64,000 nucleotides of DNA from NCBI RefSeq assembly GCF_026151205.1, contig NC_087076.1, positions 13,625,675 to 13,689,674 of the forward strand. Reading direction: 5' to 3'. This DNA comes from Bolinopsis microptera (Eukaryota > Ctenophora > Tentaculata > Lobata > Bolinopsidae). Made by a program: the position numbers and the translations under genes. The notes beneath the pieces were generated by a model. It saw only the letters and a program-made list of their open reading frames with translations. It did no database searches and was not told the DNA's origin. Shown in pieces: positions 3,683 to 60,565 of this stretch (position 1 is the first letter of the stretch; each line of letters begins with the position of its first letter).

Positions 3683-3895
3683 TGTCTAATGAAGTAAGTC
3701 AGACAAGCAAACTCTTCCTTAAATGCTGATATAAGTCGTCTCAATCCCAGAAATTATGAATGATGACCCAGTGTAAAAGTGCAAAAATCGGCCGAAAATA
3801 ATAAAGACTAAAAACAGTTAAAAAGTGACAGGATTCAAACACAAGGAAAATTAATAACTTAGAGCGTAATAAGAAATATCTCCAAACGGAGTTTT

Positions 3896-4870
3896 CTGAG
3901 AGGGTGAGAGGTTCTTTAATTAGAGCTAATGAATAAATGAGACCCACTAAAGGTACTAAATTAACCGGACTGCTAGCAAGGAATCGAGAGTGGGAATAAA
4001 AATAAAAGCGGAATAAATTTTAAGATCTACCGTCGTATATTCTACAATGATAAATATTGTAACGTACGTGCGGCGCGCAAAATCCACTACAAAATCCACT
4101 ACAAAATTCAGGGAAACGTCTTCTGGTTTATTTTACTGGAAGGTGCGTTGTAAATATTCTTGTGTCTGTATGCGCGGCGCACGAGCATGCTTTAATTTTA
4201 TTTATTAATTTAATATTTTTCTGAGAGGGTGAGAGGTTCTTTAATTAGAGCTAATGAATAAATGAGACCCACTAAAGGTACTAAATTAACCGGACTGCTA
4301 GCAAGGAATCGAGAGTGGGAATAAAAATAAAAGCGGAATAAATTTTAAGATCTACCGTCGTATATTCTACAATGATAAATATTGTAACGTACGTGCGGCG
4401 CGCAAAATCCACTACAAAATCCACTACAAAATTCAGGGAAACGTCTTCTGGTTTATTTTACTGGAAGGTGCGTTGTAAATATTCTTGTGTCTGTATGCGC
4501 GGCGCACGAGCATGCTTTAATTTTATTTATTAATTTAATATTTTTCTGAGAGGGTGAGAGGTTCTTTAATTAGAGCTAATGAATAAATGAGACCCACTAA
4601 AGGTACTAAATTAACCGGACTGCTAGCAAGGAATCGAGAGTGGGAATAAAAATAAAAGCGGAATAAATTTTAAGATCTACCGTCGTATATTCTACAATGA
4701 TAAATATTGTAACGTACGTGCGGCGCGCAAAATCCACTACAAAATCCACTACAAAATTCAGGGAAACGTCTTCTGGTTTATTTTACTGGAAGGTGCGTTG
4801 TAAATATTCTTGTGTCTGTATGCGCGGCGCACGAGCATGCTTTAATTTTATTTATTAATTTAATATTTTG
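3896..4870. repeat. Three near-identical 325-bp tandem copies
   Basis: Units begin with CTGAGAGGGTGAGAGG at 3896, 4221 and 4546. Each contains CTACCGTCGTATATTCTAC and a duplicated AAATCCACTAC, and ends in an AT-rich run. I see no differences over long stretches, so the triplication is recent or actively homogenised. Confidence 0.97.
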
Positions 4871-16769: not shown

Positions 16770-17464
16770 GCTAGCTTCTTCTCTGTGATATCACGCCAAT
16801 AAATGATATCTGCTGATCTCCTGCAGATATCGCAGGAAAGTGATAACGTGGCTCTAAAACAAGAATCTTATACATATTAGTGTACCTACAGCTTAAGGTA
16901 TTTCTGTAAAGCATCTTGCAAGGAATGTTAAGTGACTGCAGAATGGAGCTCTACTCGTGGTAATCTGATTGGTAACATGATTGTGTTGACCCTTAATGAA
17001 ATAATAGTGCAGGACAAACAATATAATAAGCTTGCATTTTACATTCCACGGCGTCCAGTTCCTGCTAAAGCTAGACTTTACATTCCAAGCCGAAATTTCA
17101 CGACAAGAACGTCTTCAGGATGTCACCTCATTGCAAGCTCATCGATTCAGTTACTCAATCTGATTAAGTCAAGATGTCCGTGTCGAATAAAAAGTGAAAA
17201 TCTATGATTATAAACGAGGGAGAAATTTAGGGGAATGTTTAATGCTTATTGCTGATGTTTGGGACAATATGTAATTTAAACATGGTGATAGGTACTAGTC
17301 ACTACGATAGTTCAAGTTGGTCAGTACTCAGTGATGGGATATGTTAATAAATAATTATACTGGAAAACGGGAAGGGGAGTATTTTATCAATACTTGAAAA
17401 TATATGAGTTCGTCATTGCCCAAGTTAAAAATTGGCCATGGAACTAAAATTGGCCATGGAACTA
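16770..17464. other. Intergenic DNA between gene B and the palindrome/LINE
   Basis: No convincing gene. A 19-bp direct duplication (AAATTGGCCATGGAACTAA) is seen at 17430-17468. Confidence 0.5.
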
Positions 17465-17660
17465 AAATTGCTCGCCTCAATTAAAAAAAATTCTTATGAA
17501 AAGGCCCGGAGAGTTAGGGTATGAAAGTGAAAGTAATCTGAGTGCCGAGTGGATATATTTTTGGCCAGTGATTGCGAATCAGCCTCCATGACGTAGGGTA
17601 AAAATGCTTCCCTGGAGAGTTATGGGCAAAAAACTGTTTTGGTCACGTGACAGGCTATAT
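17465..17660. repeat. Left arm of a palindrome interrupted by a LINE
   Basis: Ends in GGTCACGTGACAGGCTATAT at 17640-17659. The reverse complement, ATATAGCCTGTCACGTGACC, begins at 20623. Further out, ATTGCTCGCCTCAATT at about 17467 is matched by the complement of AATTTAAGGCGAGCGAATTA at about 20818, so the arms may extend beyond the core. Confidence 0.75.
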
Positions 17661-17664
17661 ACTA

Positions 17665-20396
17665 AAGTGCGGCTAGTAGAGCTGACAGGAATGCAAATCG
17701 CAACCCACACAGCAATTTCCTTCGCAATCAGCACTTTCTCAAAAAAAAGGAGTACCGGGCTATTAAGAGCACGAAAAAGGGGAAATATCTGTTCGAGATG
17801 AATCAAAAGATAAACGAAAGTGGTAATGTTAACTGGGCGGCGCTCAAGCAACTGTCCGAACAACACAAAGATGAAGAGCCATTTGACATTTATGATCTTC
17901 TCCTCTTTCATAAATTTTTTAACGACCTTTACAACCGTAAGTGTAGTAAGAATCACCACGCAGATGATGACGTCGTCTCTACTCCCACAACCGACGAGCT
18001 GCAGAACACTAAAAACCTAGTCGACAGTTTGAATCGAGACTTCACCTTACAGGAGACAAAAGATGCGATCAAGAAACTGAAGAACAACAAGAGTGTGTCT
18101 GATGACCTGATATCAAACGAGATGCTGAAAAACTCCAACGAGCAACTCCAACTTGTTCTAGTTAAGCTTTTTAATGCCTGTCTTCAGTGCGGAACCTACC
18201 CTTGGAACAACTCTATCACCACTCCACTCCATAAAAAGGGTGACCGTCAGAACCCCGATAACTATCGGGCCATTACCATTGGCAGCTGTCTTGGCAAGCT
18301 ATTTTCGAACTTGCTCCTTAAACGGCTGATAGAATTTAGGGAAATAGCTTGTCCCGACCGACCGTATCAACTGGGATTCAGGAGTGGAGCACAATGTAAT
18401 GACCACTTGCTCACCCTGAACACTATCATAGAGAAATATGTCAAAAAAGAGAAGAAGCGACTATTTGCCTGCTTCGTCGATTATCGGAAGGCGTCAGAGG
18501 CACATATTAGGTGCGGTAAAAAAATCGAAATTATGCGGTACCGCACCCGACTATAAAGGTAAAATGTGCGGTAAGGTGCGGTAAATTTTTACCTGCAATT
18601 ATGCGGCAAATGTGCGGCGATTTTTCGAAATTTGTGCTGGAATTGTGCGGTTTTCCTAAAAGGGCCCGACTTTTAACATTTCAAAATTATGCGGAAAATG
18701 CTAGATTATGCGGAAATATGCGGAAAATTACAAAATGTGCGGAAAACAATAAATTATTGAAAACGGTAAATTGTGCGATCCCGCACCCATCGCACCTAAT
18801 AGGTGCCTCTGGAAGGCGTTTGACAGTGTATGCAGGGATGCACTTCTGTTCAAACTGGGCAACATGGGTCTCTCAGGCAATTTCTTCACTTGCATCAGCC
18901 ACATGTATAACAACTCGTCAACCCGAGTTAAGCTGATCCAAAAGCTCTCCGCTGCTATCGACGTTACCATCGGCACAGAACAAGGGCACCCGATGTCCCC
19001 TGAGCTCCTCAAAGTTTATATCCACGAACTTTCCATCAGACTGGAACAAATCGAAGAGTTGAATGTCCCAATTTTAAACGGCATCAAAGTAAGCCACCTC
19101 CTATGGGCTGACGACTTAGTCCTCCTAGCACTTGACGCGTTCAGCCTACAATCGTTGCTGAATTGCTTGCACGACTATGCAGAAAAATGGGAGTTATCAG
19201 TTAACATCGACAAAACCAGTGTGATGGTCTTCAATACAAGCTCACGAACACTTAAATGTTCTTATGGCTTTAAACTAGGAAGCCTGGACATTATACCAGT
19301 AAAAAGATACTGCTATCTCGGAATCCAATTCTCTCTGAATGGATCGTTTAAGCAAGCTATCGACGAACTTAGGAAGAAAGCTCTACGCTCATTCTTCTCA
19401 ATGAGGCGAATTATCAACACGAAAGCACTCACTACCAGCACGATGCTTAAACTCATCGATAGTCTAGTAAAGCCTGTAGCGACCTATGCATGTCCCGTCT
19501 GGCTCTCATCAACAAACATCGTAAAGGCTATCCTGTCGAAAAAAGAAGAAGTGAGCCTGCCTAAATCTGCAGCTAAAGATCCGCTCGAAACAACTCATCT
19601 GAAGATTCTCAAATGGATACTAGGCGTTCACAAGAAAGCTAATAACAACTTCTGCTATGGTGACACTGGTAGAACCCCCTGGACAGTTACCGTCATTCCC
19701 CAATGTTTAGCTTACTTCCATCGGGCATCCCTGGCGGTAGAAGGTAACGTGAACACTCTTTTGCACCACACCTCTCAAGAGCAAAAGCTACTGAATCTAA
19801 CCTGGTATGATGCGTGGTCAACTATTGCCAAGATGAGTACAGTCTCCAAGCCGCAGTTATCACCCACCCTAGACGCTTGTGAGTACATACATGAGACATT
19901 TGTTGACCATTGGAAGAGAGATCTCCTCAACCAGCCCAAAATGTCTTTCTACACAGCGGTTAAATTCGAGTTTGGCGAAGAACCCTATTTACAGCTCCCC
20001 TGCCGGCTTAAAAGGGTCAATATTGCTAAACTCCGATCTAGCAGTCACGATCTTAGGATAGAAAAAGGTCGCTACACCAAAGATCAACTCAACACAGCTC
20101 TTAAAACGTGTCGCTTCTGCTGCTCCTCAGAAACGGATGTCATACGTTTTTTAGAGGAGCTCCCCTTCTTTGAAACTCCTATTCTAGAAACCGAAGACCA
20201 CGTCCTAACTGAGTGCCCCTACTACCATCAACTCAGGTCCAACCTCTCTGACAACCTCAAAAGCCTGTTGATGCTAAAAGAATATGGAGCAATAATGAAC
20301 TCACCCCATATAAAAGAGTTCGGGAAGTACCTTACAGACTCCTCAAATCTACGTAATCCTCCTAAAACGTCCCTTAACCCTCGCAAACAGATGTAG
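17665..20396 (+). pseudogene. LINE reverse transcriptase ORF, split by a MITE
   Basis: The frame covers a pre-RT region (FDIYDLLLFHKFFNDLYN), then RT blocks with TTPLHKKGDRQNPDNYRAI and LGFRSGAQCNDHLLTL. A 317-bp insertion at 18495-18811 follows. The frame then resumes with the FDSV block, EQGHPMSPELL, and the catalytic LLWADDLVLLA, where WADD replaces the usual Y/FADD. The C-terminal region has LRSSSHDLRIEKGRY and a zinc-knuckle-like CRFCC...ETEDHVLTECPYY. Removing the MITE and one target copy would leave the frame continuous, so the MITE is what broke this copy. The protein would copy element RNA into DNA at a nicked target. Confidence 0.9.
18495..18811. mobile_element. 317-bp hAT-type MITE inserted in the LINE RT gene
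   Basis: Terminal inverted repeats are CAGAGGCACATATTAGGTGC on the left and GCACCTAATAGGTGCCTCTG on the right. An exact 8-bp target duplication, GAAGGCGT, lies at 18487-18494 and 18812-18819. CAG..CTG ends with an 8-bp duplication are typical of hAT elements. The interior is rich in TGCGGTAA/ATGCGGAA motifs and non-coding. Confidence 0.97.
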
Positions 20397-20622
20397 TACT
20401 CGAACTTTATTTACTGTATTACCTTAAATTATTATAGACGATCTTCTTTTATTTTCGTGAAATTGTAAACGGTTAAATTTTACTATTTTTAAATGATTCA
20501 GTTTTGATAATTCTATTTATTCATTTATTCATTTATTCATTCTTGTATAGCCAAGACGAGTCCGTTAGTGTTCTCTCTGGTAATTTCATGTTTAATCCTG
20601 TTTAATCCTGTTTAATCCTGTT

Positions 20623-21888: not shown

Positions 21889-24535
21889 GGTAAATGGAAT
21901 GGAAATGGTCTCGAAAAGTCAAAAAAAGTGACTGAAATTGTTGTAGACTAAAAATTTCCGAAATTTGTGACTAAATATAAAATTATGGTAACCAAAATTA
22001 TGGTAACCAAATTTATTGCGAACCAAATTTATTGGCCCTAAGGTATTATTTATTATTATTATTTTCATAAATACTAAAGAAATCATATTCCTTTTATAAA
22101 CCAAACGTCGCATGCTGACTGGATCATGTGAATTGTGATGTGGCTACGAAGTGATTGCATATGAAGTACTGTGGAATTAATCGTGGAAATGGAAGCCTTA
22201 GGAAATATTCCATGGTGAATTGGTGACTTTATTTGGCCGGACATTATTACGTGGGCACTAAAGGGTGATGCAGAGGGCTCAGCGACCACGATAAATCCGT
22301 CAAAATTAAAGACACTAGTATTTGTTACTACCATGTACTGTTGACTGTACATTTACAATGTACATTGTCCATTTCACGTTCAAAGAAATTTTTGATGTCA
22401 TGATTAATTCCGACAAAACTGTAATTTTCGTCTTTGTAATATCCGCTTAAATTAGATCCAATAAGGCAAGATATATCATGTTTATTTATAACTTGTTAAA
22501 AAATCAAAATGAAATTACCCAAACATAATTGTTTTTGTGCGTCAAATTTGACGAAACGCAAAGCTGTGTGTGGCGTGTTTTCCCGCGAAATGTCGGTTAA
22601 TTTTCAACGTCAACAAACAGACGGCAAGCTTATCAGTATTATACAATAAGATACAATTTAAGGGATAGAAAATTTGTGGCACATTTTGCAAAAAAGGCAA
22701 ACTCAAGTTGAGAAATTTCCCACATTTAAATTTTATTGCTCACAAAGCAATTTTTTGGCAAATCCGGAATCATTATCGCGTCCTTAATGATAATCTTACC
22801 AAGTAATTGAAAGCGAATCTTAATGAAAGAAAGGTCCAAAGAAATACATTATAAAGGAGTAAACATGCAAGAATTTGTGCTATAAGTATAGTGTTTGATG
22901 CCCGACTTGAAACTTTGAGAAATACGCTATGAATATTATTGATTATATCGCTTAAACACGCACAAATTATTAAAAAAGATAGATTTCAAGACGTAGGAAA
23001 ATGGTGAATGGAGCCAATACACTAAACGCACAACACGTGCACTTTTAAACACCGTCATGCCCTGGCGGGGTTCACTGGCGGGGTTCACTGGTGACTTTAC
23101 AGTGTCAGCAAACAGTGTTCAAGATGAAGAACTGCTGACTGAGACAAATTATTGCTTGCACGTCCGGCGCAGAACGGCTACCGCTAATAAAGTTACGGTT
23201 AGTTTTCCGTAAAAGAGAAAATTTATAATTTCATCAGTAATTGTTTAAGTTTTTAGGTTGCAGCCGTATAATCAAATTAATTTCCACTATTTCAACTCAC
23301 GGTCGGGTAAGTAGGTCAAATGATCTCGTGATTAACCTGTGTGCTGTTAACGTGAAATATAACGTGAAATATAACGTGAAATATAACGTGAAATATAACC
23401 ATAACGGTTGTCTGAACACAATGGAAAGTTATGATCATAGAATATAATGGTTGTGGTGAATGCCTTAAAATACCGTTTATGGTTTATTTCCGTTTGAATT
23501 TGCCTGCGGAAAGGATGGTGCTGCATTTGCGGAGCTTCAAACTCAAAGTAGTAGTGCTGCACTGATATGTATTTTCCGACCCCTGCAGTTATCCTATCCC
23601 AGGCGTTAAGCTGATTTGCTGCGAAGGAATACGTTGCCACGGCCTGATAATACCATAATCACGTGATATCTATTTTTACCACACCCTAAACCTATCTCGA
23701 AGTATCCTGGCTTGGTAAGAAATTAATTAATTAGCCTACCACATACCAAACGGCTGTATAATAACAATTATTATTAACAACTATTTAGCGTTGAGTTTTA
23801 CGCTATGACTATGAGTGGGAAAAAATGATTCGTAATCAGTGCCATGGTTATTGTTTGAGATTCAAAACACATTTTGTAAAAGCAAGAAGAAGGAGAAAAT
23901 TAAAATTGTCAATTCACCCCCCCCCCTCCCCAACCACCTTGATGGCGAGTAGTCTACCAGGGAATTGGACCAGCTGCAGCTATAAGTATAACCGGAAATC
24001 GGATGGTTCTCCGGTATCAAAGCAAGACACTTGGACAAACTAACTTAAAATGGCCTTAATTACTCGAATAATTTTGGCCATTTTTTCATAATCATATAGC
24101 AGATTGTAATTTCGGAACCCAATAAATTTATAAAATCCATAAATGATCAAACTCAAAGACGGACCTCGGCCTCTACAGGTTTGAAATTTTCGCACCCTTC
24201 ATAATCTGGCTCCCATTGAAAATAGAATGAGATCATGTCACCCTGCAATCTGTGACGATTAATTGATGATGAATGATTAATAGATATCAATTGCCTGCCT
24301 AGGTCGATCCAGAAGAAGTCTGGAATGAGTTTCGTGACATCGCTTCTCTCCAATTATCTCTATCACTCATGAGCAAACGTAACTTATCAGGATCCAATCC
24401 AGTATATTCTTGTAGGACGTCCGGAAAGGTCTTATGCGGTCGTTCTCGATACCGATGGCCATATTATGGTGGTTGCCAGAAAATGAGTTGCTGAGCAGGT
24501 TGGTCCTGTTAACGGTAGACATCTATGACAATATA
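21889..24535. other. Intergenic DNA without recognisable genes
   Basis: Short frames only. It contains a four-unit 12-bp repeat (AACGTGAAATAT) at 23350-23399, a duplicated GGCGGGGTTCACTGG at about 23065-23090, and a poly-C run at 23917-23927. No family resemblance was found for any open frame. Confidence 0.5.
23350..23399. repeat. 12-bp tandem repeat, four units
   Basis: AACGTGAAATAT repeated four times without change. Confidence 0.95.
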
Positions 24536-35241: not shown

Positions 35242-38200
35242 ATGACGACGGTACGACCATGGGTACTGTCCTTGTGTTATATCCTACTACAGATAACTTC
35301 CTCCTCAGCTAGAATAGAACAAGTCGAAGCCCAGAAAGATGGTCAGTGAATAGCACTTTTGTAAGCACAATCGTAATTGAACCATGCAAAGTGGTCATGT
35401 CAATCTGCAACATGCAAGCAGGGTCACTAATTAGAGTGCGTACTGCGTGTGAACCAGAAAATTACAAAAATTGTTTTAAGGATTTTATATTATGGAAATT
35501 ATCACCTACATCATTACAGGTGTCAATCGAATTGACAAACATCATAAGAATCCTTACGGGACATGGGAGAACAGGAGGCTTCACACTCTCGATATCTGGC
35601 TTGACAATGGGATCTTTAGCCCAGAACTTAAAGAAACAGATGAATTCGGCCCAAATGTATGTAGACGACTTAATCTTTAATCTAAGGAAGATGTTATTCT
35701 TATAGTATTGGGAAATCATCACGATTCGCCATCTGTGATCTATCTGAAATTTGTGTCATTGTTCCTATAAGAAAAAAAATGAGTAGCATAAATGTAAACG
35801 ATTTTTCTTTCAGAAATGGTACAGCATACAATTCTTCATGACCCTCGAGGACGCAATGAGCAACGATCCCGACAGAAATTCCGTGGTATTCAGCTTTAAT
35901 TTGCACAGTACTGTTCGATCAACCTTTACATATCTAAACTTTAAGAACGAGCCACTGGGACCAGAGACCGTTCGCTACGAGATTACCACCTCAATGTTTG
36001 ACATCAGCAACGCTACCACACCAGTGTAAGTTCTTAACTTTGTTAAGTACAGTAAAACACCGATTTACCGCAAACCCCAATTTACCGCGGCCATTTCCTT
36101 CCCCAAATAGGGCTTAACATGCATAATGTAAACAAACAAAACCCCGATTTACCGCAAACCCCGATATACCGCGGATGTTTCCTTTCCCCAAACTCCGCGA
36201 TAAATTGGGGTTTTACTGTAGTAATGAAGTTGGTCGTTTCATCGAATGTGATCCATTTGTTATGGGATACAATTGTTAACACTCAGCTTAACATTTACCT
36301 TGAAGTCAAAACATATCCAAAGCACCCTAGTCAAGCTGAAAACAGATAAGCTGGTGACATATTTGTCGAATGTAATCCTCTTCGGAGAAAGCAAGGCCTA
36401 GCTCATTCCAAAACTACTAATAAAAACACATTTATTGAGGAGGATACAGATGGAATATGTTCAATATGAAGTTTCAGAAGTCCTTTAATCCTCCTCCAAA
36501 GTTCAATTACGCTAATATTGTTCAATATCGTTCAATTAATAGTTTAATATTTAACCCACATTTTTGTGCTATGTTTTTAAATTAGTACTTCCACAGCAAC
36601 ACAAGCGTGGACTACACAAAGACTATCTTCAAGTTTAACGCCACCCATATCATGATGTGGACTAATGACATCCTCACTGTCAAAGTATTCCTGAGAGACA
36701 TTCCTCTGGATCTCGGAGACACAAAATTCTTTAAATTCCTCAACTTTGACGAAGGCCACCAGGATCTCTACAAAATCTACTATTGGGGTTGGTTTAAATT
36801 TACGTTGTTCTTTTGCTTTGTTCTTTGCTGGAAATCAGTGATTGGAACAGTAAAAAAACATCTCCCGGTACATGTAGTCTGCACAATGGTACATGTCTAG
36901 ATCGAAGTAAACTTATGATCCCACACTCTAAGAAATCTATGAAATTAATCAATTAATTACATAATTAACTAATAATTGTCCCCAGACCCGACAGTGTTCT
37001 GTTGGACCGATTGTTACGATGACGATCTCCCGGACAGGTTTCACTTTGATAGAGAAGCAGTAGCCCAGTACAGCGAAAAAGATTTAGGAGAAACTTGCAA
37101 GATTGTTAACTGCACATATGTATATAGACTCTCTTTTTGATTGCGTCAATATTCAATACTGAGACTTTAGCTTCTAATGATAGCTAATGTCAGTTCAATA
37201 GTTTTAGGCAGTTTCGCGCACAATATCTATGTGTCGAAGCAATGATGATCCAAAAATGGTCAAATTATGAGACCACGTAATATATGAGAGTACTCCCTTT
37301 GTGTTCATTAAAATGTTCTTTTCGCTGTAAAAGCTGCACTGTCCGTTCTGAAAGTCCCAAAACCATTATTAGCAAATTTATCAAACTTTTTATCAAATAT
37401 TTCCAGGATATGGGGGAGAAACTGGTGGGTAGCTCGATGACCCCCTCAGATTTTCCACGCTGTGTAAGACTACATCATACCCCTCAAGGATCGAACAAGC
37501 AGAAAACTTTACTCAAGTGCACCAACGAGAACTACACATGTATGTACCACAAAGAGAAGTGGACCTTTACTGATAGTTGAAATTCGACATATGACGTCAT
37601 CTAGCGTCATCTAGCGTCATCTAGCGTGAAATATCGCCAGATGATGATAGATGACGCTAGATGACGCTAGATGACGCCAATTAGCGACATTGTCGCTAAG
37701 TGCACGGCACCTTTCGAATGTCGCTATTTAGCGCTATCTAGCGCTATCTAGCGCTATCTAGCGCTATATGACGCTATATGACGCTATATGACGCTAGATG
37801 ACGCTAGATGACGCTAGATGACGCTAAGCACGCAGCACTGACGCCAGGCGACAGAGAGCGCTATTTTCATAAAAATTCTAGGGACGACATCTAGCGTCAT
37901 CTAGCGTCATATGTTGCCGCGACATCTGACGCTATCTGACGCCATCTAGCGATATCTGACGTCATCTGACGACATCTGTCGCGACGACATCTGACGCAGG
38001 CGACATCAAGCGCTGGATAGCGGGATAAGTCAGTTTACGACAGTTCACGCTATCTAGCGCTATATAGCGCCAGATAGCGCTATATAGCGTCAGATGTCGT
38101 TGCGACATATAGCGCTAGATAGCGTTAGATAGCGCTAAATAGCGTTAGATAGCGCTAAATAGCGAAGAATTTTGGGTCGTGACAGTCCAGGCTATTTAGC

Positions 38201-39017
38201 GCTAGATGTCGCTATCTAGCGCTATATGTCGCTAGCGTCATCTAGCGTCATCTATCATCATCTGGCGATATTTCACGCTAGATGACGCTAGATGACGCTA
38301 GATGACGTCATATGTCGAATTTCAACTATCAGTAAAGGTCCAGAGAAGTGGGGCTGTGATGGAGGAGGGCTGTGATGGGGTGGGGTTGTGATATGAATGA
38401 AATCAGAGCGATGTTGTTTGTTTGTTCATTGAAGTTTGAACCCGTCCCCACTCTCGTATCGGAAAATGACTAGACTCAGTTCTAGTTCTACTTCTGAGTG
38501 TGAATACGGGTGGTACCTGCAAGTGTGTTCACTAAGCGTTTAGAGTTCTGTAAAACTGCAGTTACAATTGCGCTAGAATATTTTTAGTATATACGATCGA
38601 TATCAGGTCTATTATATCCCTACATGCTTCCAAAATATTTAATTTCCAACTTTCTGCACAATGTACTGGAATGTTTTGGGAAAAAAGAAAGTGATATATA
38701 AATAAAATCAACGATTTAGGAAAGTAAAATTAATTCCCTGGTTTCTCAAGTCAGCTTTAAAGTCGGATATCATAATTACACGTATACACTTTGGACCAGC
38801 TCAGTATACATATTAACTGAATGATTGTCATGACAATTATGACTTACAATAACCCGCAGATACGGCATGTGAAGCGTTCCCGGATAAGCCTTGTTGGTAC
38901 GAAGTTTGTGATAACTACGATCTCTGTAACTCCTCATTTTCTCACCTCCCTTCCCTTCCTCTCCTCCTATTCCTCATTTTCTTCCTCGCCACACAGATCA
39001 GCTCTGTACTCCGGTAG
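35242..39017 (+). CDS. Secreted, probably GPI-anchored protein 1 of unknown family
   Basis: Seven exons (35242-35341, 35520-35656, 35814-36025, 36597-36787, 36986-37119, 37407-37539, 38860-39017) join in phase to 354 residues. The start has a signal peptide (VLSLCYILLQITSSSA). The middle holds a beta-rich, aromatic stretch with KFNATHIMMWTNDILTVKV and several N-glycosylation sites. A cysteine cluster follows (FCWTDC, CKIVNC, PRCVRL, LKCTNENYT, CEAF, CWYEVCDNYDLC). The protein ends in a hydrophobic tail (SLPLLLFLIFFLAT) without a cytoplasmic domain, as in GPI-anchored proteins. The next gene is a paralogue. I do not recognise the domain. It may be a lineage-specific cell-surface protein. Confidence 0.8.
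36050..36218. mobile_element. 169-bp pogo/Tigger-like MITE in an intron
   Basis: Ends CAGTAAAACACCGATTTACC and AAATTGGGGTTTTACTG are inverted, with TA on both sides. Internal ACCCCGATTTACCGC repeats recur. It lies in the third intron of surface-protein gene 1. Confidence 0.85.
37561..38341. mobile_element. 781-bp foldback element with 110-bp perfect inverted ends
   Basis: An 8-bp target duplication, AGAGAAGT (37553-37560 and 38342-38349), brackets ends reading GGACCTTTACTGATAGTTGA and its inverse. The arms are identical over about 110 bp. The interior consists almost wholly of short ATCTAGCGTC, TAGCGCTATC and ATGACGCTAG motifs in both orientations. It sits in the last intron of surface-protein gene 1, 21 bp after the splice donor. 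hAT (8-bp duplication) or Mutator-like (long arms) are both possible. Confidence 0.93.
38414..38765 (+). repeat. Interspersed repeat family T, copy 3
   Basis: GAATACGGGTGGTACCTGCA, ATTTAGAGTTCTG-like and CAACTTTCTGCACAATGTAC blocks in the same order as at 3025. It is shortened and lacks the foldback. It lies in the last intron of surface-protein gene 1, just after the 781-bp foldback element. Confidence 0.8.
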
Positions 39018-49411: not shown

Positions 49412-52400
49412 TTAACTGCTGGCGCCGCCCAACTTAGTCAGTTGCTCCAGAAAGTTGCTGCTGTCCATCATCTCCGAGCTGCCGTACACGATACGTTTGT
49501 CGGGATGTTGTTCTGCGTACGTCATGAGGTTTTGGTATTCAACGTAACTACCACCGCCCACCACGAATACGTAAACCTGAAATATTAGGGTAGTTTAACT
49601 GTGTTTACGTGGAAACTGGTCTTCCGTCTTACCCGAGTCGGTTTAAACTAAAAGGAAAGGATTTGGAAAAGAGTTTAGGCAACCATGTTTGGGTTGAAAC
49701 AAGGTATGGGGAGCAATGCTGTTTCACAGGGAATCAGAAGAGTCTAGTCCAGTAGTAGTACAGTACACGTGTATTATGCGCGCAATAGTTGAATAATCAG
49801 CGCGAAAATACATTTGCTCGCAACATTGAATTGCTATTCGGAGATGGCGCTCAATGATTCCCGAATCACCCTTTGCCAATTTCAAAACTTTGCGGAGCAT
49901 AAGATGCCCATTCTATTCTTGGCATGATCAACTTCAACGACAGCAGTCAATCCTGGATATAAGCATTCAAAAATAAAATGGAACAAACAGTTTGGTGTTT
50001 TAATACGTTTACACATGAATCTGAAGACGTAATTTAACAGAACAATAAACGCCCAATTTCAGTCGGACACAGCTGTGGTAACGTTGGAGTCTAGTGTTGT
50101 GTGACCCAATGACGTAACTTTGCCTGTTGGAGCCCCCCCCCCTGCTGAAAAAGCGCCAACTGACCCCTGTTGGCGCCCCTCCCCTTTTGGTGCCCCTCCC
50201 CAAAATTGGACAAATTAGATGATTTTAGAGGATACGCCTGTAAAATCTCTAAAAAAGTGTGTTTCTAGAGCAAAACGCGCAGTTTTGCTAGTACCGTAGT
50301 TAAGTTTTTCAAAATTGTCCCACATTCAAATTAAGATGGCATCCCCATACAGCGGGGTCGGCGGGGCCCTTTGTTACGCCACTGGTGTCACCGACAAATA
50401 TTCAATTCTGGGCAACCTGGTTCAATAATTAAAATATAAGTTTAAGAGTAATGGTACAGCAAATAAGAACGTAACGCATTATAACGTTATCATAATATGT
50501 TTTAATAATGCATAATATGTTTTAATGTATATTAAAACGCATGCTTGTGTCGAATCATCTTTAACCATACGAATACCAAAAGACTGCCACATCCTTCAAA
50601 TAACTTAGATAAAACAAATCAATTACACTGTAGTTTCTTCAAAATGCTTGTTCACCTTATAAAAGAAGGCTTATATGAATACTTTTCATTTAACCTTTCT
50701 TTATTTTTTACTGTAAAACTTAACGTCCCAACATCTCCAGCTATCTCTTCAGCTACTTTATTATAATATTCATATTTACCATTAATGTAATGAAATATAA
50801 AAATACTATCAGTAAAACCAAAACGGGAAAACAGTATAATGCAAATAGCGTGCGATCAATTCTATTCATACAATTCCAATTTAAAGGAGTTTGCATGAGT
50901 CTCCCATACTTTACTTGGAAACAATTTTCTGATATATAACCCGTAACATTATGATATATTACACCAAAAGCTCTTGTTATAACTATACATGAAAACAATA
51001 CCTTAAGAAAAGTAAAAACTACAAAACTTACAATTAGCTTATTTCCTATTTTTACTTCTTTATCTTCTACTTTAAAAATATTCCTTTTACTGAAAATAAA
51101 TTTTAAAACCAAAGGAGCACTGATCTTTAAAGTGCTACCTTTACTCTCCTTAACCATCTTGTAATCACTATTGTAAGAAAACAACGCTTTAAGTCCGGAT
51201 ATACCATGTATCAACACTGACAAAACAATTTTTGAAAGAATGGTGTAGCTGATACCATCACCAAAAGAATAGATATCGACAAAGAAATATTCCATAAATA
51301 ATTCACCGAAATCTTCTGATATTATCTTTATTCCTGAGACTAACGGTTTCAGTAGTTTGCTTGCAGCTTTATCCTTGTTACGGTAACCCAAGATCATGTT
51401 TGTCCCGAAAGCAAAAAATGGAAACTTAATTGCACCAAAACATCCAAAAACTAAAATCTTATCGTTCGCCATACTGTTTCTCGTTACATTTCTACTAACG
51501 AAAGATCCGTTATCAAGTAACATAGCGTAGCTTAGATCTAGATCTAGTACAACATCATGCATATCTACAGCTATCTTCAGAATTGAAAAATCGCAACATA
51601 CGAAGATTGAACATAACATAGCAATAACACATCTTAACACTATATTTTCGTATCTAAAACTGCACGGTAGAAGATACAAATATTTCCACTTTCTGATCAG
51701 GTCTTTAGCTGATATCTCAACACCGTTAACAAGGGGAAATGGTGAATAGCTACCCCCTTGGAAATCTCCAACCTTAATGCCTCTCTTTTGTCCGTGTTGT
51801 ATCACGGTCCTCTGTCCAATGTTTTTGAGCTCTTGAAACTCTGATTCTTCAACAAGAACATACACCCCTTCAGGGTACTCTGTTCCCCACTTCTTGTTAT
51901 AACGCTTGTTTACAGGCACGATATGATAAACGTGATCTTTGGGTTTATCGAACAGACTCCCTGGATCAGCCGGATTCTTTATCATGTTACAGACGTTATT
52001 TCCGAAACTCAGATTTGGGAAAAGTTTAGCGAACCCAACTTCTAGCACTTCCATCATGAACAGAAAACCAGATGTAATACCCAAGAAAGCAAGTAGAAGT
52101 ATTATGCCAATAATAAGCAAAGTTGCATTATATCTGCTATCACTGGCGGTCCAAGTGTCCGTCACACCGTGAAACGCATGACCAGCTACTTCTACACAAT
52201 CGGTTCTTGATATGTTACACTTAGAGTCACCGCAGTGTAACACGAAAATCATAAGCAAAGTTGTGTGGGCTTTTATCATCCTGATAGTGAACGAAACTTA
52301 GATCGAAATATTGGTTAGAATAATGTCGTTTTGTGATGGGGAGGTATGCTTTTACGTAAAATTCGATTGAAAAACATTTAAAGAAAAAATCTTCAAAAAT

Positions 52401-55400
52401 CCTGAGAAACATGTTATTTTACCAGTTATTTAAAAAAATATAAAATTGAACATTCAACTTGCAAACTCACAAAACAACGGCCGATCGAAATATATGAAAT
52501 ATACTGAGTCTGATGAGCCTTATTTATATATATGTAATTTATACGTTATTTACCTACTTAATACAAACTACCACAAAATACCCCTTGGCTTCCCCCCTAC
52601 ACTAGCAGCTTTTCCAAGCCCTCTAGACTAGTTTATGGAACATGTGAACGATAACTAACAACATTAAGTTGGAACTTCAACATCGTCTCTAAAGTGAATT
52701 AACGACTGATTTGAACAATTTATTATTAACAGAACGATTTGAGAAGCAACTAGTCAAAGGAATCATGTGTCTAGCGTAAAACAATTGAGAACACAAGGAA
52801 ATAAAGAAGAGAAACTACAAACAAGTAAGTCATGATATAAGAGATTGATAAGGGAAATGACCTCATATAATGCGCGGGTAGTAATACGATATTCAGTGAG
52901 GATTAAGCCACGATAACCGTCCTGGGAACCATATATTCAAAAGTTTTATCTAGCATATTATTTAAATCGGTCATCTGAGTGGCATGGCTGGAGCTCCCAT
53001 ATTTAAAGGACAAGTGTAATTTAAAAGGCCAAACGTTATGCACTTTTCTCAGCTGCAGCGATGATGGCAAGTTACATAACAAGAAATGCGGCCGCTTTTC
53101 TTTTGTGGATGGCCGCTCAATTTCCCGATCCGTGATGGCGTATTTATCATATTCCATACAACCTGGGGACGGCCCAGTCTTTACTGTTTATATAAACATG
53201 CACAAATATGGCGAAGTGACATGCCGACTGCCGAGCGCCGCCCAGTTAATATAATTCTACATTGAATTTGAAAATCGTGTATATTTTTATGTAACCATAT
53301 GTTTATTGTTTATGCAACCTGACACGGATCTGTGCCCAGAAACCTGGGCGGGCACGCACGCTCGCTCGCAAGCTACCATATACAACAAAAAACCTCGTTC
53401 GCTAAAAAACACGAAATTACTCACATCGTTAAAAGTGTTCTTGAGGGCCGGCAGAAGGTTCTCACTCTTCCTATATATCTTAGGATCCAGCGCCAGGAAA
53501 CTATCAGTCTCCGGAGTCTGCTTCAGCTCGGAGAGACAGTCCACAGTCCGGGTTACGGGCAGTTTCCTGTGTCCCACCACCAGACTCTTTACTCCTTCCA
53601 TCATGAACTTGGAGGAATTCTTGACGTACTTGAACATGTTGGACATGCTGCTGTAACCTCCAGCTGGAAAATAAAGTCGTGTGACGTCATCTTGATACGT
53701 GGTAAACATGAGGTTGGAAACGTGATTTATATTTGATTGGTTAAATTGTTGTAGTTGAGCAGAATTTCATTTTATTATATTATCTTACTGGTGTAACCCG
53801 TGCCAACGGCCGGGACTTCACTATCGCAGTTGAAATGCAAAAGTATAAACCCGCCTATTACATTCGAAAACATGCATTATATTTTCGTAGTTAAACCGGT
53901 GCGAAAGTATGAACTATGAAGTTACTCATTCCAAACAGACTGCAATTTAATTCTGAGTGCTCCTCACGTATTTAATACATAGTAATAATTGATAGGGAAT
54001 CTTGAGGTCTACTGCCAAATTATCTAATTACATAGCAAATCTTTTATGGGGGAGAGAGAGAGCGAGAGTGAGAAAGAGGGAGAGTACTTGAGACACTTGA
54101 GTAATGAGTATCACATTTGGGTCACAAAATGATCAATTAAACCATTTACCACCGGCCGCAGCCGATTTAAAAAACCTTAATAATTTGGCTTGGTCAGATT
54201 TTGTCGGCCTATACCGAAAAAACCAGACCGTTTTCTAACCATTTACTTGATTAAGCCGCTCGGAAATTACACGCGAACGAACGAACGAACACACAAACAC
54301 ACATCTTGAGATTATTAGTATTAACATTTAAGAAATTTGTCGTAAAAACTATGAAGATAGTAGTAATAACCTTTACTAGCAATGGCAGTCAAAATCTTAT
54401 TAAGCCATAGCCCATATACCAAAAAATCCATATTTTGAACGCAAACACTAAATATGTCGACAGTTGATTTCATTCACGTGAGGAATTCCTGTTAAATTGA
54501 TCCTGTTGTCTAATCATGCATGTTTACTCTTTTGTTGCTTTAAAGTTGTTTTAAAATGAATATGATCGCACAATCTAGCATTCTTATATTCATGATTTTA
54601 ATCATCATTGGATTAGGTAGGTTATACTTTAACAGTTTAATAAGGAAACATTAGGTGGGTAGATGTTATACTTTAACAGTTTAATAAGGAAACATTAGGT
54701 GGGTAGAGGTTATACTTTAACAGTTAATAAGGAAACATTAGGTGGGTAGAGGTTATACTTTAACAGTTAATAAGGAAACATTAGGTGGGTAGAGGTTATA
54801 CTTTAACAGTTTAATAAGGAAACATTAGGTGGGTAGAGGTTATACTTTAACAGTTTAATAAGGAAACATTAGGTGGGTAGAGGTTATACTTTAACAGTTA
54901 ATAAGGAAACATTAGGTGGGTAGAGGTTATACTTTAACAGTTAATAAGGAAACATTAGGTGGGTAGAGGTTATACTTTAACAGTCACTAAGGAAACATCT
55001 TAAGAGTTTAATTTAATGATTTGGTTAGAGCTGGAATTATTTGGGTTTCTTATAATTGTATTGTTCTTAAATGATCAACTAAAACCTTTTCCATGCTTCA
55101 GGTGCGATAAGCCAAGTACCCTCAGAAAGGAGTGGCTTAATTGGTGAAATGATGCCGTTGAATAAGTTTATAACCTGAAATGTAGCAGTCCTACCGAGTG
55201 TACTTACGATACTTCTTCTAGCTGTCGTACTCGTATCTATTACAATCACCGAGACTACTACACGAAGATCTCCTGTACCGGCTGTAAAGCTAACACCTAC
55301 ATCTCTGATAGGAAGTGTCTCCCCTGTCCAGCAGGCGCCGCCTCCCCTCCAGACTCAACACAGTGCAACTGTGCTGCTAACTGGTACATAACATCAAACT

Positions 55401-58400
55401 ACCAGCACTGTTTCAAGTGTCCTACAAACAGCACTTCACCTGTAGGTTCTACTCACTGTAACTGTCCAGCAGGTTACTATTTCCTATCGCTGACAACACT
55501 GGAAGCGCGCTGTAGTATCTGTCCGCCTAACTCCTACAGCACAGAGGGAGCGCTAAAATGTGCAACCTGTGCGCCAGGATCCAGTTCTACAGCTGGATCA
55601 GAACAGTGTGAGTGCGATGGTGGACTTTACTGGGAGGATGGAGTCTGCAAGGGCTGCAGTGCTGGGTTTTACAGCTACTCTGGTGCTACAGAGTGCTTCA
55701 AATGTCCAGGAAATCTCACATCTAACGAGATTCAATCGTTCTGTACCTGTCTGCCTGGTTCCTACTGGAGAGTGGAGGAGAGGAACTGTGTCCAGTGTTC
55801 AGAGGACCATTACTCAGACAGTGGTAACAACACACAGTGCACACCATGTCCTCAACATTCCACATCAACCCCGGGATCTACCACATGTAGTTGTAAAGCA
55901 GGCTACATACTGGTTAACAATACCAGATGTGAGCCGTGTTCTGAGAACTTTTACTCTACTGCTGGGTCTCTGAATTGTACAAGATGTCCTCACTTTACTG
56001 CTGCAAAACCAGCTTCAGGCAACTGTTACAGGTAATTCAATAATTGCAAGTTGTAAATCTAGGAGAAGTATTAGATCTATTCCCAAGAGTTTGAGATACC
56101 TAGTTAAAAAACAAGGCTATAATCGTTATTAGAGTGAGTGCAATAAGTTGTAACCCAATTCTTATTCTCCAGGTGCACTCTGGGAGAGTACTGGGAGAAT
56201 CACACATGTTACAAGTGTCCAGAAGATCTATACGGAGATGGGGTCCAATGTCACAAGTGTCCACCAGGGTTTAAAGTTGACAAAGGATTCTGTCACAAAG
56301 ATCTAACACAGAAAATAGTGGTCGCTGCGTTCATAGCACTGCTGACACTGGCTTGTATTTTGGTTGCAGTGGCGATCTTTTACCGTTACAGGGTAAGACG
56401 ATTTGATAATGAAAGAATCTCCTCTTATCATATTAGAATGAGCGAACTTTACATGAATCATGTGTAAAATATGCAAGTACAACAATTGCTATTGAATTTG
56501 AATCCTGAAGTAACAGAATCTCGAGCTACTGATCAAGCCAGATCAAGGTTCCATTGGTATACATAAACTTGGTGACGGGTGTACTTAAGTGGAGTAGCGG
56601 GGGGGGGGGGGGGGGGGGGGGAGTGTCTCTCTCAATTATAACCAACCAAGTTACATTGGGCACCATTAGAGTATTATAACTATTAAGTATTATATTATAT
56701 GTATTAAGTTTTGTTTTAAATCCTTATTAGTTTTCTAACGAAATCTTTGTAAAATATAACACAATTGAATTGTTCATAAACTTTTAAACAATTAGCTGAT
56801 TATTCTCTTAGTTTGCGTTAAGTTTGAGCAAAAATTGTACGTAATGTTTTCTTTGGTCTAACCTAATTGAATCCTACCATAATAATGTTATCAAATATCC
56901 AAGTTTTTAAAAAAGGTCCTACCCTGCAGTTCCACGGCTCAGTTTTGCAACCAGATTTGCTCACATTTTTTCTCCCATTTTGCGACCGGAAATGAAATTC
57001 AAAAATATTTCTCCGCACGGAGAAATATTTTTGATATGACCCAAAACTCCGCGAAAGCAGTTTTAACCTGGGCGCTTGCGTGGGACATTTCATTATAATG
57101 CGCCCACGTGCGCGCGCAAATCTGCGTGCAAATACCAACCGTGAAAACGTACATTGTAAACAAAACTGCTTTTGCGGAGTTTTGATTTTCAAAACTCATT
57201 GCGCGGAGTTTTGTGTCAAATCTGGTCGCAAAACTGAGCCGTGGAACTGGGCTGTAATTTCCACAAGAAAGAGCAGAAAACTTCCTTATCAAATACGATT
57301 TATATAAATCTGCATCTGCAAATTTACTGTCGACTAACATAAAGAATGACTTACTTGATGACGTTAGTTTTGGCTGAGGAGGGGCACTTAGCGAGGATAC
57401 ACTCTTCAGCTTGGCCAGGTACTCGATACACGACGTGTCACACCCTGCTTCCTGTAACGTTGGTGGCATGTTACTTGGCATGTTACTTGGCATGTTACTT
57501 GGCATGTTACTTGGCATGTTACTTGGTATGTTACTTGGCATGTTACTTGGCATGTTACTTGGCATGTTACTTGGCATGTTACTTGGCATGTTACTTGGCA
57601 TGTTACTTGGCATGTTACTTGGCATGTTACTTGGTATGTTACTTGGCATGTTCAGCTTTAGAATTGAGAAAGTATGACTAGTATAGTAATGCCGTCATTA
57701 TGTGCAGTTATTTTATCTTATTTTATCAGTTGTAATATTATATGGACAACAATACTTTCTGATAAGAATAGCGGATATAAATAATATTTTTAAACGTTTT
57801 GGAGCCCATCCAGTTCAGACAACTGTTCATAACACGACTAGTAAAGATAAAAGAATTTAAAACATTTTGACTCTTTTTATATATTTATTCGATTTGCTGT
57901 ATATTAATTATATTATATATACAGTACTATTTTGTAAAAGTTTCATATCAATCAAATCAAAGAACAAATACTACAGTCACGGTCAAGACTCCCAACCCAG
58001 GTCCCACGATCTATACCGAGTCACACAATTAAACAAACAAAACAAACAAATCTAAAGATACCTGAAGAGGTACCTGAAATCTAAAGGTACCTGAAAAGGT
58101 ACCTGAAATCTAAAGGTACCTGAAGAGGTACCTGAAATCTAAAGGTACCTGAAGAGGTACCTGAAATCTAAAGGTACCTGAAGAGGTACCTGAAATTTAA
58201 AGGTACCTGAAGAGGTACCTGAAATCTAAAGGTACCTGAAGAGGTACCTGAAATCTAAAGGTACCTGAAGAGGTACCTGAAATTTAAAGGTACCTGAAGA
58301 GTATCGATATACTGCTGTAACTCGTTGTCAGGAAGATCAGAGGTACTTAGGTAGTAAATTACAAATAGTCTCAGTTTGTCCTCTGCTGTTCCTACGTTTG

Positions 58401-60565
58401 GGTTCTTCAGCGTCTGAAATTGTATTTAATAAATTAATAAAGCGTACTCCCTATTAACCTTATACTGCTGCATAAGGTAAATTATGGGGATATTAATAAT
58501 GTGTCATGCTGAATTATTTCTTTACGGTACCGGACCGGACTAACTAAACTTTGGACAAAATGGAGATACAATTTTCGCTTTTACCAAATGTTTTGAAGCA
58601 CACAAATAACATGGACTCACATCAAGGACACTTTCCTCGAGAGTTGTTTTTGTCATGATCTTCTCCTCTACTTCAAAGAACTTGTCGAGGTTCCTGGATC
58701 GTATACAGTCCGACAGAGCGGTTGCTATGTTGATGTGCATATCTACTCTTTTCTTCCGCTCCATCAACTCTGGGAATGAGAAAATAATATATCTAAATAC
58801 AGTAGCATTCAAACCTGATATGATAAAGCCTGATAGAGTACCGACACAGCACAACAATCATACGATAAATTGAGCTAAATTTTTGAATTATTTCGTTGGC
58901 AGTGAAGATTTGACAGTGAATTTGACAATTAAAGCTGTGCAAAACAATAAAGAAGAAACATTTTTCTCTCCTCTTCAGTGCAGTGCATCTAAAATTAAAT
59001 TGATTCTGACCTAGTTAATAGTTTACATTGGAGATATGGTTTTTAAAAGCCGATCCTACCTGGCAAAGAAGACACAGTGTTAGCTATCTGATCGTTAGCA
59101 TTCTCATCACCGCCTCCCATAACATCTTTCAGCCTCTTAATCTCCTGCTCTGCAGCTCTGCAAGCTTCTAGCTCCACATGCACTGCATCAGCTACTTCCG
59201 GAAACGGCTTCCCTAGATTAGGAGAAAGGAGGATTCAAAAAGTGAATATTTTATGAATATTTCACATATTTACGTCTTCAGTTTACAAATCAGTGAAACA
59301 CAAACATACTATGCGGGGGACTACAGACCCCCTCAAAGTCCTTTTCAACGTTACTACCAGGTTACATAGCACTCAATAAATGTATTTAATTGTAGTTGTG
59401 AAAATAGTCTAATATAATAATATTCTAATAAATCTTCTATACAAAGTTGTCTTTAAAAACGTTATAGTTGTTTAATGTTTACTCAGTTTTTTGCAAACCT
59501 TTATTTTTCGCCCAGAACGAGTCATCTGGTCCCAGATCATAGTTTTTAACTTTCTCCTCCACCTCAACCTTACAACGGTTCAAGTACAAATTAAACAAGT
59601 CATGTATCAGGGCTTGGTATGTCCATGTGTGATGTAAGGTAGAACAGATGTCCATGTTTCGATCTAAGAGTATCAGCAAGGGCCGCTGGAAACTTGTTAT
59701 TGCTTGGTCTTTAAACAGTTCTGAAATATTATTAGATTAAAAGATTAAAGTTTTGATGCAGGGTGTTATCAACTAAACATTTTGGATAGACTAGAAGCTA
59801 ATGCATGTAATGTGGTAAGAAGTTTCAGAATAATAACTTGACAATGATGAAGACTAGATTTGAATAATGATTAATATTTAGATGAGAGCTTTCACCTGAT
59901 TTAGGATCTCTTCTAGCATCCCTCATTTTCTTCTCTAACCGTTCAGCAACTATTTCTGCTGCATTACCCTTAGGACACCTTATCACAGGCAGCTCTCGAA
60001 GAGTGACAAACAGTGAAAAAACTGAATCAGTAATTGCATTGATACAATTTTCTATATCTGAATCTTTAGCATCAGGTCTGTTCAAAGCATAATAGCTGCA
60101 AGCTTCTGCATCGTAGGCTGAAACAGTAAACAAATTCTGCTCCAGCATACAAAAACTAAGATATTGATCAAAAATCTTCTCAACTCTTGCCACTGTGTCA
60201 CTCTCAATAGTGGCCTGAGCTAAGTCCTCCAACAACTGCCGAGAAACAGCTGTGATGAAATTGATGTAAAATTTCTCATACATCTGATTTTTGCAGTCCT
60301 GACTGATCAGATCAATGTTCTGTTTTGTGGGCATCACAAAGTACACAACTGGGACATCGGGGATTGGGTCTCGTTTGTCTGCTACAAGCAGGTTTAGAGT
60401 AACCCCACATTCCCTTAGCTCCTTTACTGTTAGAAGCGGGGCAATTATATCTCGACCATACTCATCAAACACAAGGATTTTCCATGTGCTGTTTGATTTG
60501 GGAGAGTTCAGGTTGAGCATGTGTTTCACTGCATCAATCTGTCTTGCACGGACATCAGCGGCCAT
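49412..60565 (-). CDS. SCFD1: SCFD1 / Sly1, Sec1-family SNARE regulator
   Basis: Eight exons on the minus strand (59896-60565, 59499-59720, 59060-59212, 58621-58769, 58294-58413, 57355-57451, 53425-53663, 49412-49576) join in phase to 604 residues, close to the roughly 640 of animal Sly1. Recognisable segments are WKILVFDEYGRDIIAPLLTV, RPLLILLDRNMDICSTLHHT and WTYQALIHDLFNLYLNR (domain 2), EEKIMTKTTLEESVLD, RLFVIYYLSTSDLPDNELQQ, KFMMEGVKSLVVGHRKLPVT, and the C-terminal YVFVVGGGSYVEYQNLMTYA. Sly1 binds syntaxin-5 and promotes SNARE assembly in ER-Golgi transport. The CDS starts at 60565, and an acceptor-like TTTCAG lies 5 nt upstream. Only seven introns is few for an animal copy. Two other genes and three minisatellites lie inside its introns. 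Confidence 0.97.
50107..50384. mobile_element. 278-bp hAT-type MITE in an SCFD1 intron
   Basis: Left end CAATGACGTAACTTTG and right end (inverted) CAGTGGCGTAACAAAG are the widespread hAT-like terminus. An 8-bp target duplication with one mismatch flanks it (GTGTGACC at 50099, GTGTCACC at 50385). A poly-C run lies inside. Confidence 0.8.
50700..50705 (-). terminator. Polyadenylation signal of the nested membrane gene
   Basis: AATAAA on the minus strand, about 48 nt after the TAG stop. Another AATAAA overlaps the last three codons. Confidence 0.5.
50753..52279 (-). CDS. Intronless multi-span membrane protein nested in SCFD1 intron
   Basis: A single 508-codon frame without introns, in the last intron of SCFD1 and on the same strand. 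The N-terminus has a signal-like stretch (HTTLLMIFVLHCG). Hydrophobic spans follow at about residues 53-75 (ATLLIIGIILLLAFLGIT), 215-235, 275-295, 345-370 (ISYTILSKIVLSVLIHGI), 408-430 and 478-503 (LFALYCFPVLVLLIVFLYFI). Between spans 1 and 2 is a soluble region with an ERTVI-like basic patch. N-glycosylation sites (NISRT, NATLL) precede span 1. I do not recognise the family. It may be a retroposed or lineage-specific gene. An acceptor-like TATCAG ends 1 nt before the ATG, and AATAAA signals overlap the final codons and lie 48 nt after the stop. Confidence 0.8.
   Translation of the reverse strand: MIKAHTTLLMIFVLHCGDSKCNISRTDCVEVAGHAFHGVTDTWTASDSRYNATLLIIGIILLLAFLGITSGFLFMMEVLEVGFAKLFPNLSFGNNVCNMIKNPADPGSLFDKPKDHVYHIVPVNKRYNKKWGTEYPEGVYVLVEESEFQELKNIGQRTVIQHGQKRGIKVGDFQGGSYSPFPLVNGVEISAKDLIRKWKYLYLLPCSFRYENIVLRCVIAMLCSIFVCCDFSILKIAVDMHDVVLDLDLSYAMLLDNGSFVSRNVTRNSMANDKILVFGCFGAIKFPFFAFGTNMILGYRNKDKAASKLLKPLVSGIKIISEDFGELFMEYFFVDIYSFGDGISYTILSKIVLSVLIHGISGLKALFSYNSDYKMVKESKGSTLKISAPLVLKFIFSKRNIFKVEDKEVKIGNKLIVSFVVFTFLKVLFSCIVITRAFGVIYHNVTGYISENCFQVKYGRLMQTPLNWNCMNRIDRTLFALYCFPVLVLLIVFLYFITLMVNMNIIIK
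52521..52530 (-). promoter_or_regulatory. Possible TATA box of the nested membrane gene
   Basis: Minus-strand TATATAAATA, about 242 bp upstream of the ATG at 52279. The spacing resembles that of the four-helix membrane genes, but the surroundings are AT-rich, so chance is possible. Confidence 0.3.
53161..53248 (+). repeat. Short interspersed repeat G, copy in an SCFD1 intron
   Basis: ACCTGGGGACGGCCCAG and CCGAGCGCCGCCCAGTTAA match the family ends. The middle has diverged. Confidence 0.55.
53789..54325. repeat. Interspersed repeat family C, copy 2 (inverted)
   Basis: Reads ACCCGTGCCAACGGCCGGGA and ACTTCACTATCGCAGTTGAA at the left, ACCACCGGCCGCAGCCGATT in the middle and TCTTGAGATTATTAGTATT at the right. 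This is the reverse of 27640-28023. About 300 bp at 53860-54147, including a GAGA-rich run, are absent from the other copy. Confidence 0.75.
54556..56467 (+). CDS. Cysteine-rich, ephrin-receptor-like single-span membrane protein (frameshifted?), nested in SCFD1
   Basis: Exon 1 (54556-54616) encodes a signal peptide (SSILIFMILIIIGLG). Exon 2 (55102-56030) holds about six or seven GCC2/GCC3-type ephrin-receptor-like repeats, of the pattern CPAG..S..GST.C.C..GYY.....C..C. Exon 3 (56173-56467) adds another repeat, a transmembrane helix (IVVAAFIALLTLACILVAVA), a basic stop-transfer YRYRVRR and a short tail, or splices at the GGTAAG after YRYR. Joining exon 1 to exon 2 in phase meets TGA at 55176, while the frame of the repeats has TAA at 55163. 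As written, the start of exon 2 is therefore broken. A frameshift, a missed small exon or an assembly error is possible. It lies antisense inside SCFD1. The likely role is a cell-surface receptor or adhesion protein. The ligand is unknown. Confidence 0.72.
54617..54992. repeat. 43-44 bp minisatellite starting at a splice donor
   Basis: Eight to nine copies of GGTTATACTTTAACAG, (T)TTAATAAGGAAAC and ATTAGGTGGGTAGA. The first copy begins at the donor of exon 1 (GGATTAG|GTAGGTT). Every later unit carries the same ATTAG|GTGGGTA and an AACAG acceptor-like site. It fills most of the first intron of the receptor-like gene. Confidence 0.95.
56599..56622. repeat. Poly-G tract (about 22 G)
   Basis: The longest G homopolymer in the window. 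It lies just downstream of the receptor-like gene, inside an SCFD1 intron. Confidence 0.95.
56927..57249. mobile_element. 323-bp MITE with an internal perfect palindrome
   Basis: Ends CAGTTCCACGGCTCAGTTTT and AAAACTGAGCCGTGGAACTG are exact inverses. Inside, 57001-57032 is a perfect 32-bp palindrome (AAAAATATTTCTCCG and its inverse around CA), and AACTCCGCG../..GCGGAGTT pairs lie further in. No clear target duplication. Confidence 0.85.
57467..57652. repeat. 12-bp minisatellite abutting an SCFD1 splice acceptor
   Basis: About 15.5 copies of CATGTTACTTGG. On the SCFD1 strand the unit reads CCAAGTAACATG, and the array ends 15 bp before the acceptor of the exon at 57355-57451 (ACGTTACAG|GAAGCAGG). 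Because the period is a multiple of three, the array reads open on both strands; in the exon's frame it would encode MPSN repeats if retained. Confidence 0.97.
58051..58293. repeat. 29-bp minisatellite starting at an SCFD1 splice donor
   Basis: About 8.5 copies of GGTACCTGAAGAGGTACCTG plus AAATCTAAA. On the SCFD1 strand every unit contains CTTCAG|GTACCT, identical to the real exon-intron junction at 58294, as well as a TTTCAG|GTACCT site. The array starts exactly at the donor of the exon 58294-58413. Confidence 0.97.

Follow-up and report, generated by a model that had tools for sequence, protein, structure and literature searches.

Minisatellites lie at splice junctions in and around the SCFD1 gene of Bolinopsis microptera, within the 64,000-nucleotide stretch analysed here (contig NC_087076.1, positions 13,625,675 to 13,689,674; hereafter the window), and intronic arrays in dynein loci of the same assembly stand close to exon boundaries more often than random placement in the same introns would predict. 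The arrays are best read as tandem duplications that spanned the splice junctions of existing introns and then expanded as minisatellites, with the exon-proximal splice site being the one used, a reading to which a probability of roughly 0.7 can be given. The seeding of such duplications at junctions is supported, on a small sample.

All three of the arrays that a sequence-only reading had placed at or against splice junctions around SCFD1 were recovered by Tandem Repeats Finder (TRF), whose calls supply the array boundaries, copy numbers and percentage matches given for the locus. A 29-bp minisatellite (58048-58301, minus strand; 8.8 copies, 97% matches) stands at the donor of SCFD1 intron 5. 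Its unit is made of GTACCTTTAGATTTCAG (17 bp) and GTACCTCTTCAG (12 bp) and therefore holds two AG|GT, and the whole array contains 17 AG|GT donors. The repetition of the junction in this array had been correctly described, although the array does not begin exactly at the donor but overlaps exon 5 by 8 bp, as judged from TRF and the exon model. At the acceptor end of the same intron is a 12-bp minisatellite (57464-57652, minus strand; sense unit AAGTAACATGCC, 15.8 copies), so placed that the two arrays occupy opposite ends of intron 5; it ends 12 bp, rather than the 15 bp first reported, from the last intron base at 57452. The third array, of 43/44 bp (54619-54998, plus strand; 8.7 copies), lies at the donor of a gene nested on the plus strand within SCFD1 intron 6, where the junction is GATTAG|GTAGGT (54616|54617). 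Its position stood, as did the return in every unit of ATTAG, the last 5 bp of the nested-gene exon; the proposed repeated junction ATTAG|GTGGGTA holds for the internal donors (GTGGGT) and not for the first (GTAGGT), and the junction has been copied inexactly. Neither the 29-bp nor the 43-bp pattern has a match beyond this locus, at up to 3 mismatches in a search of the 264.65-Mb assembly with these two units. The near-identical copies at many loci that characterize introner elements were thus not found for the 29-bp and 43-bp units, which match this locus alone.

The consequences for coding are clearest in SCFD1 (49412-60565, minus strand). Rebuilt from its eight coding exons, the gene matches Pfam Sec1 at 4.3e-125, and the rebuilt protein, including its C-terminal part, matches yeast Sly1 (1mqs) at E 5e-58, in an alignment that passes ungapped across the exon 5|6 junction, the site of the 29-bp array. 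On these homologies, SCFD1 is a real gene with a homology-supported 5|6 junction. Exon 5 (58294-58413, ending ..ELQQYIDTLQ) has its donor at 58294|58293; intron 5 (57452-58293) is 842 bp long, about 400 bp of it outside the two arrays; and exon 6 (57355-57451) begins with EAGCDTSCIEYLAKLK... Only the first of the 17 array donors keeps the frame, the other 16 truncating the protein, and it is because all other donors break the frame that the exon-proximal site would have to be used. Protein homology would imply normal SCFD1 splicing despite the array. In the nested gene, exon 1 (54556-54616, plus strand; MNMIAQSSILIFMILIIIGL, signal-peptide-like by eye), if read on into the array, runs into a stop where ATTAG occurs for the second time (open reading frame 54544-54654). 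The suggestion that the reiterated donors serve as useful alternatives therefore finds no support at either locus. Exon 2 of the nested gene (55167-56030, the 3' boundary being approximate) is cysteine-rich and Ephrin_rec_like / TNFR_ELAPOR1-like by Pfam. Only one AG within 54999-55198 opens the frame as an acceptor (55166|55167) and it has no pyrimidine tract, for which reason the nested-gene junction is less certain than that of SCFD1.

The three arrays of the SCFD1 locus form the discovery set, and chance was tested on dynein loci instead. A 2,468-aa intron-free dynein frame (locus L027) was aligned to nine dynein loci with a purpose-written spliced aligner, which gave 113 homology-defined introns of median length 206 bp. 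With the finder array at 22201 left out, the main count has 22 intronic arrays, of which 7 are no further than 10 bp from a splice junction, where 1.14 would be expected (P 2e-5); keeping it in gives 8 of 23 against 1.15. Three arrays beyond the aligned range are also left out, as are those at 35571 and 45111, which fall outside the 27.5 kb retained for the first gene. All four thresholds put more arrays near junctions than random placement within these introns would: the excess persists among arrays with a score of at least 150 and at least 4 copies (4/11, 0.45 expected, P 2e-4), among those with a period of at least 10 and at least 4 copies (4/14, 0.86 expected, P 0.003), and when only the longest array in each intron is taken (6/14, 1.04 expected, P 8e-5). 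When junctions were displaced into the introns by 60, 100 and 150 bp as a control, no arrays were close to these pseudo-junctions (0/20, 0/19 and 0/19). The claim that junctions seed local duplication thus finds support in the clustering of array edges at exon boundaries, with one gene carrying most of the effect.

Intronic arrays are absent from six of the nine dynein loci (L028, L030-L033 and L035). The 15 introns that bear them have a median length of 846 bp, the 98 array-free introns one of 197 bp. Both donor and acceptor boundaries carry arrays. In one dynein gene (DYN1), acceptor arrays are found at 17134-17612, 22201-22951, 4572-4704 and 19917-20438, the first two reaching 4 bp across their acceptors, and an array at 275-361 is set 10 bp in from a donor. 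Units that span an exon-intron boundary occur in several genes, with 8 bp of exon in SCFD1, 53 exon bases inside a 65-bp unit in the dynein locus L029, and further cases in a sushi-domain gene (L003); such frequent inclusion of exon sequence is as expected if junctions seed duplication. The AG|GT core itself is not supported as the cause of seeding, there being acceptor arrays that lack it (e.g. CCCCAG|AG and GCAG|GACT). In an observation apart from the arrays, three dynein heavy chain matches fall in open frames of great length (3,357, 3,703 and 2,539 aa, at G000:C3:8954112, C1:6100405 and C4:10070770), the other dynein loci having many introns; these could be retrocopies or cases of intron loss.

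Some arrays with repeated donor motifs elsewhere in the assembly show similar arrangements. In the sushi-domain gene, where one exon matches PF00084 at 5.3e-5 and the exon at the array at only 0.02, the unit of a 34-bp array consists, by eye, of the last 25-26 exon bases and the first intron bases; units there carry 26 and 13 bp of exon sequence, and three of four other arrays at this locus abut junctions (both by eye). One intron of this gene, at 3285-4646, appears to consist almost entirely of two arrays, one for each splice site. Judged by eye, five of seven donor-motif arrays have a putative junction no more than about 15 bp away, two of the loci (L001 and L004) being copies of one locus; in L005 the distance to a putative acceptor is about 34 bp, and the L002 array was not assigned to a junction. 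Pfam supports exons at only two of the seven, the sushi-domain gene, weakly at the array exon, and L006, a methyltransferase. Of five control-motif loci, only L012 was placed at a junction, the remaining four being without such an assignment. L001 (1046-2229) and L004 (1045-1880) are similar loci with the same 32-bp array in 37.0 and 26.1 copies respectively, and the pair offers a natural test of array expansion after duplication.

Several results weigh against seeding at junctions and lend themselves to another account, in which these are unremarkable minisatellites of short introns, found beside junctions by chance or drawn there by pyrimidine tracts and GC edges. Most of the dynein signal comes from DYN1, a gene picked for its control-motif array, and without this first gene the other eight loci show no significant excess (2/9 near a junction, 0.78 expected, P 0.16). 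The null spreads arrays evenly over the intron sequence, with base composition unmatched. Tandem arrays abound in the genome (16 in 100 random kb), and only one of the 16 was recognised at a probable junction, most of the others not being tied to a gene; the one (L015, 8986-9281) has 11 exon bases per unit, and the exon downstream of it matches DUF4139 at 7e-4. In genome-wide motif counts, the donor motif, AGGTRNGT three times at a spacing of 6-36, has 7,992 matches against 908 for its reverse, an apparent ninefold excess, but this enrichment was dropped as evidence, and with it further support for the AG|GT core, because a permuted control (3,580 matches) reaches 7,711 when reversed. A variant with a pyrimidine at +3 (5,397 against 820) is an unclean control, because donors here often have T at that position (36/110 in the nine dynein loci, of GTTAGT and GTTTGT types), and the acceptor motif (1,530 against 461) is without a permuted control. 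Among the matches listed for contig C1, seven donor-motif arrays occur in 3.1 Mb and about five control arrays in 12.8 Mb. The short introns (median 206 bp) and the pyrimidine-rich units of some acceptor arrays (e.g. CACTAACCTCAC) also favour this account. It nevertheless seems unlikely in view of the excess at all four thresholds and the lack of a pile-up at pseudo-junctions, and intron placement alone does not account for the exon sequence, as much as 53 bp, in several units.

The remaining alternatives concern what the arrays are or do. If an AGGT-containing coding segment were duplicated in tandem to become an intron, as in the Rogers model, units that can be read from an initial GT to a final AG would be left behind, and such units can be seen both in SCFD1 and in the sushi-domain gene, in its 34-bp array. 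However, SCFD1 intron 5 keeps its roughly 400 bp outside the arrays. Five near-junction dynein arrays could be checked against paralogues: two, at 275 and at L034 1594, are in introns shared with none of the covering paralogues (0/5 and 0/8), whereas the intron positions of the other three, DYN1 4572 (1/8), DYN1 6779 (3/8) and L029 1939 (1/8), are common to paralogues whose introns there are 101-307 bp long and showed no array. Some of the arrays, at least, were thus added to introns that already existed; intron gain is disfavoured for the shared positions and as a general origin is very doubtful. Translation of the 12-bp array is somewhat less improbable. A pyrimidine-rich acceptor at 57656 (TTTCTCAATTCTAAAG) would give exon 6 an alternative start at 57655 and add 68 in-frame residues to SCFD1 as an NMPS repeat, the array and its flanks being open in the right frame as (NMPS)n from this acceptor. 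Sly1, however, aligns without a gap there and has no such insertion, and a 12-bp repeat without stops in that frame would be in the right frame 1 time in 3 by chance. It is also improbable that the arrays are functional, with repeated donors raising U1 binding or a hairpin of the 29-bp array hiding the internal donors. The RNA of this array is predicted to form a single hairpin (-115 kcal/mol, z -12), and none of 120 unit-shuffled arrays folds as stably, but the first donor would be paired too. When 15 other units were folded, 2 were at 0.05 and 13 above, and the hairpin was rejected as a general feature of the arrays.

Junction-spanning duplication in existing introns could proceed as follows. 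A short segment at or across the exon-intron boundary of an existing intron would be duplicated in tandem, and the duplicate enlarged by slippage or unequal exchange. Surplus copies of the donor or acceptor, together with a few to about fifty exon bases, would end up on the intron side; the spliceosome would take the exon-proximal copy, the first donor or the last acceptor, and the remaining copies would leave with the intron. The anatomy of the arrays, the effects on the SCFD1 frame, the positional excess in one gene family and the partly shared intron positions are observations, to which the duplication mechanism and the choice of splice site are added here by inference. The bias towards junctions may be due to a mutational hot spot or to better survival of duplications whose GT...AG copies can be removed.

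Other repeats were noted in passing. The window opens with a 184-bp satellite (1-2782, 15.1 copies, 96% matches), which begins at the window edge, and also contains a 325-bp unit present three times in tandem (3892-4869, 100% matches) and a cluster of 10-bp arrays of CGCTATATAG and CGCTAGATGA types (37595-38307). Beside SCFD1 exon 6, at about 56917-57260, is a fold-back element with CCACGGCTCAGTTTTGC and its inverse at the ends, MITE-like (resembling a miniature inverted-repeat transposable element) by eye. A dispersed 13-bp repeat family, GATGGCTGAGGAG, came up at several places on G000:C1 in the control-motif search. No match to a zf-C4 or hormone-receptor domain was found in a whole-assembly search, as would fit a ctenophore-like lineage, but this is a weak negative as the controls gave none either. 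A nested intron gene and a high repeat content also recall ctenophores (cf. Hormiphora, PMC8527503).

Among the matches listed in the open-licence literature there is no genome-wide account of junction minisatellites, but individual cases share features with those described above. In the IFI6 (6-16) minisatellite, donors at the end of an exon are contained in the repeat units, as here, and two downstream units serve as donors for alternative transcripts (Turri et al. 1995, as cited in PMC4526556). In SCFD1, by contrast, downstream donors would all truncate the protein, and the frame analysis thus speaks against downstream donor use of this type. Minisatellite expansions at exon-intron boundaries, with a mean unit of about 30 bp, are reported from human segmentally duplicated genes (PMC2812944), where internal tandem repeats are tied to novel introns and altered coding, whereas the present arrays lengthen introns with out-of-frame copies. 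The potato RdRp gene likewise contains a tandem duplication that crosses an intron-exon boundary; a new intron resulted there (PMC4974935), whilst the present arrays extend introns at positions partly shared with paralogues. Human UBC also has a tandem AG|GT array, its dual-specific AGGT sites delimiting coding ubiquitin monomers and being spliced stochastically (PMC10809524), in contrast to the out-of-frame, intronic units of SCFD1.

The closest parallel is provided by the 'mirages' of amphioxus, minisatellite-like tandem duplications of 5' and 3' exon-intron boundaries in the Adh3 and globin genes. According to the globin paper (PMC3087553, which cites Canestro et al. 2002), Adh3 units are 10-72 bp long, AG/GT signals are present in many units, splicing is seemingly undisturbed as judged by reverse transcription PCR (RT-PCR), the arrays show length and somatic instability, and the mechanism is called unclear; the structure is described as possibly general in cephalochordates. 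It is conceivable, if rather doubtful, that splice junctions are genome-wide hot spots for the birth of minisatellites in this lineage because AG|GT duplications are self-correcting: any retained stretch of array, beginning with GT and ending with AG, could itself be spliced away (recursive splicing), so that these duplications survive where others are purged. On that view splicing would generally give rise to mirages, which would not be an amphioxus oddity. Should the junction excess extend across the whole genome, minisatellites would keep supplying duplicated splice sites and longer introns, the genome would offer many natural replicates on the choice of the spliceosome among identical sites, and mirages would have been shown in an animal lineage other than the cephalochordates. 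The structure, with units that cross exon-intron boundaries at both donors and acceptors, is the same in amphioxus and here and is thus already known in kind; what is new is its occurrence in another animal and in several unrelated genes, the positional statistics, and intron positions that are partly shared with array-free paralogues.

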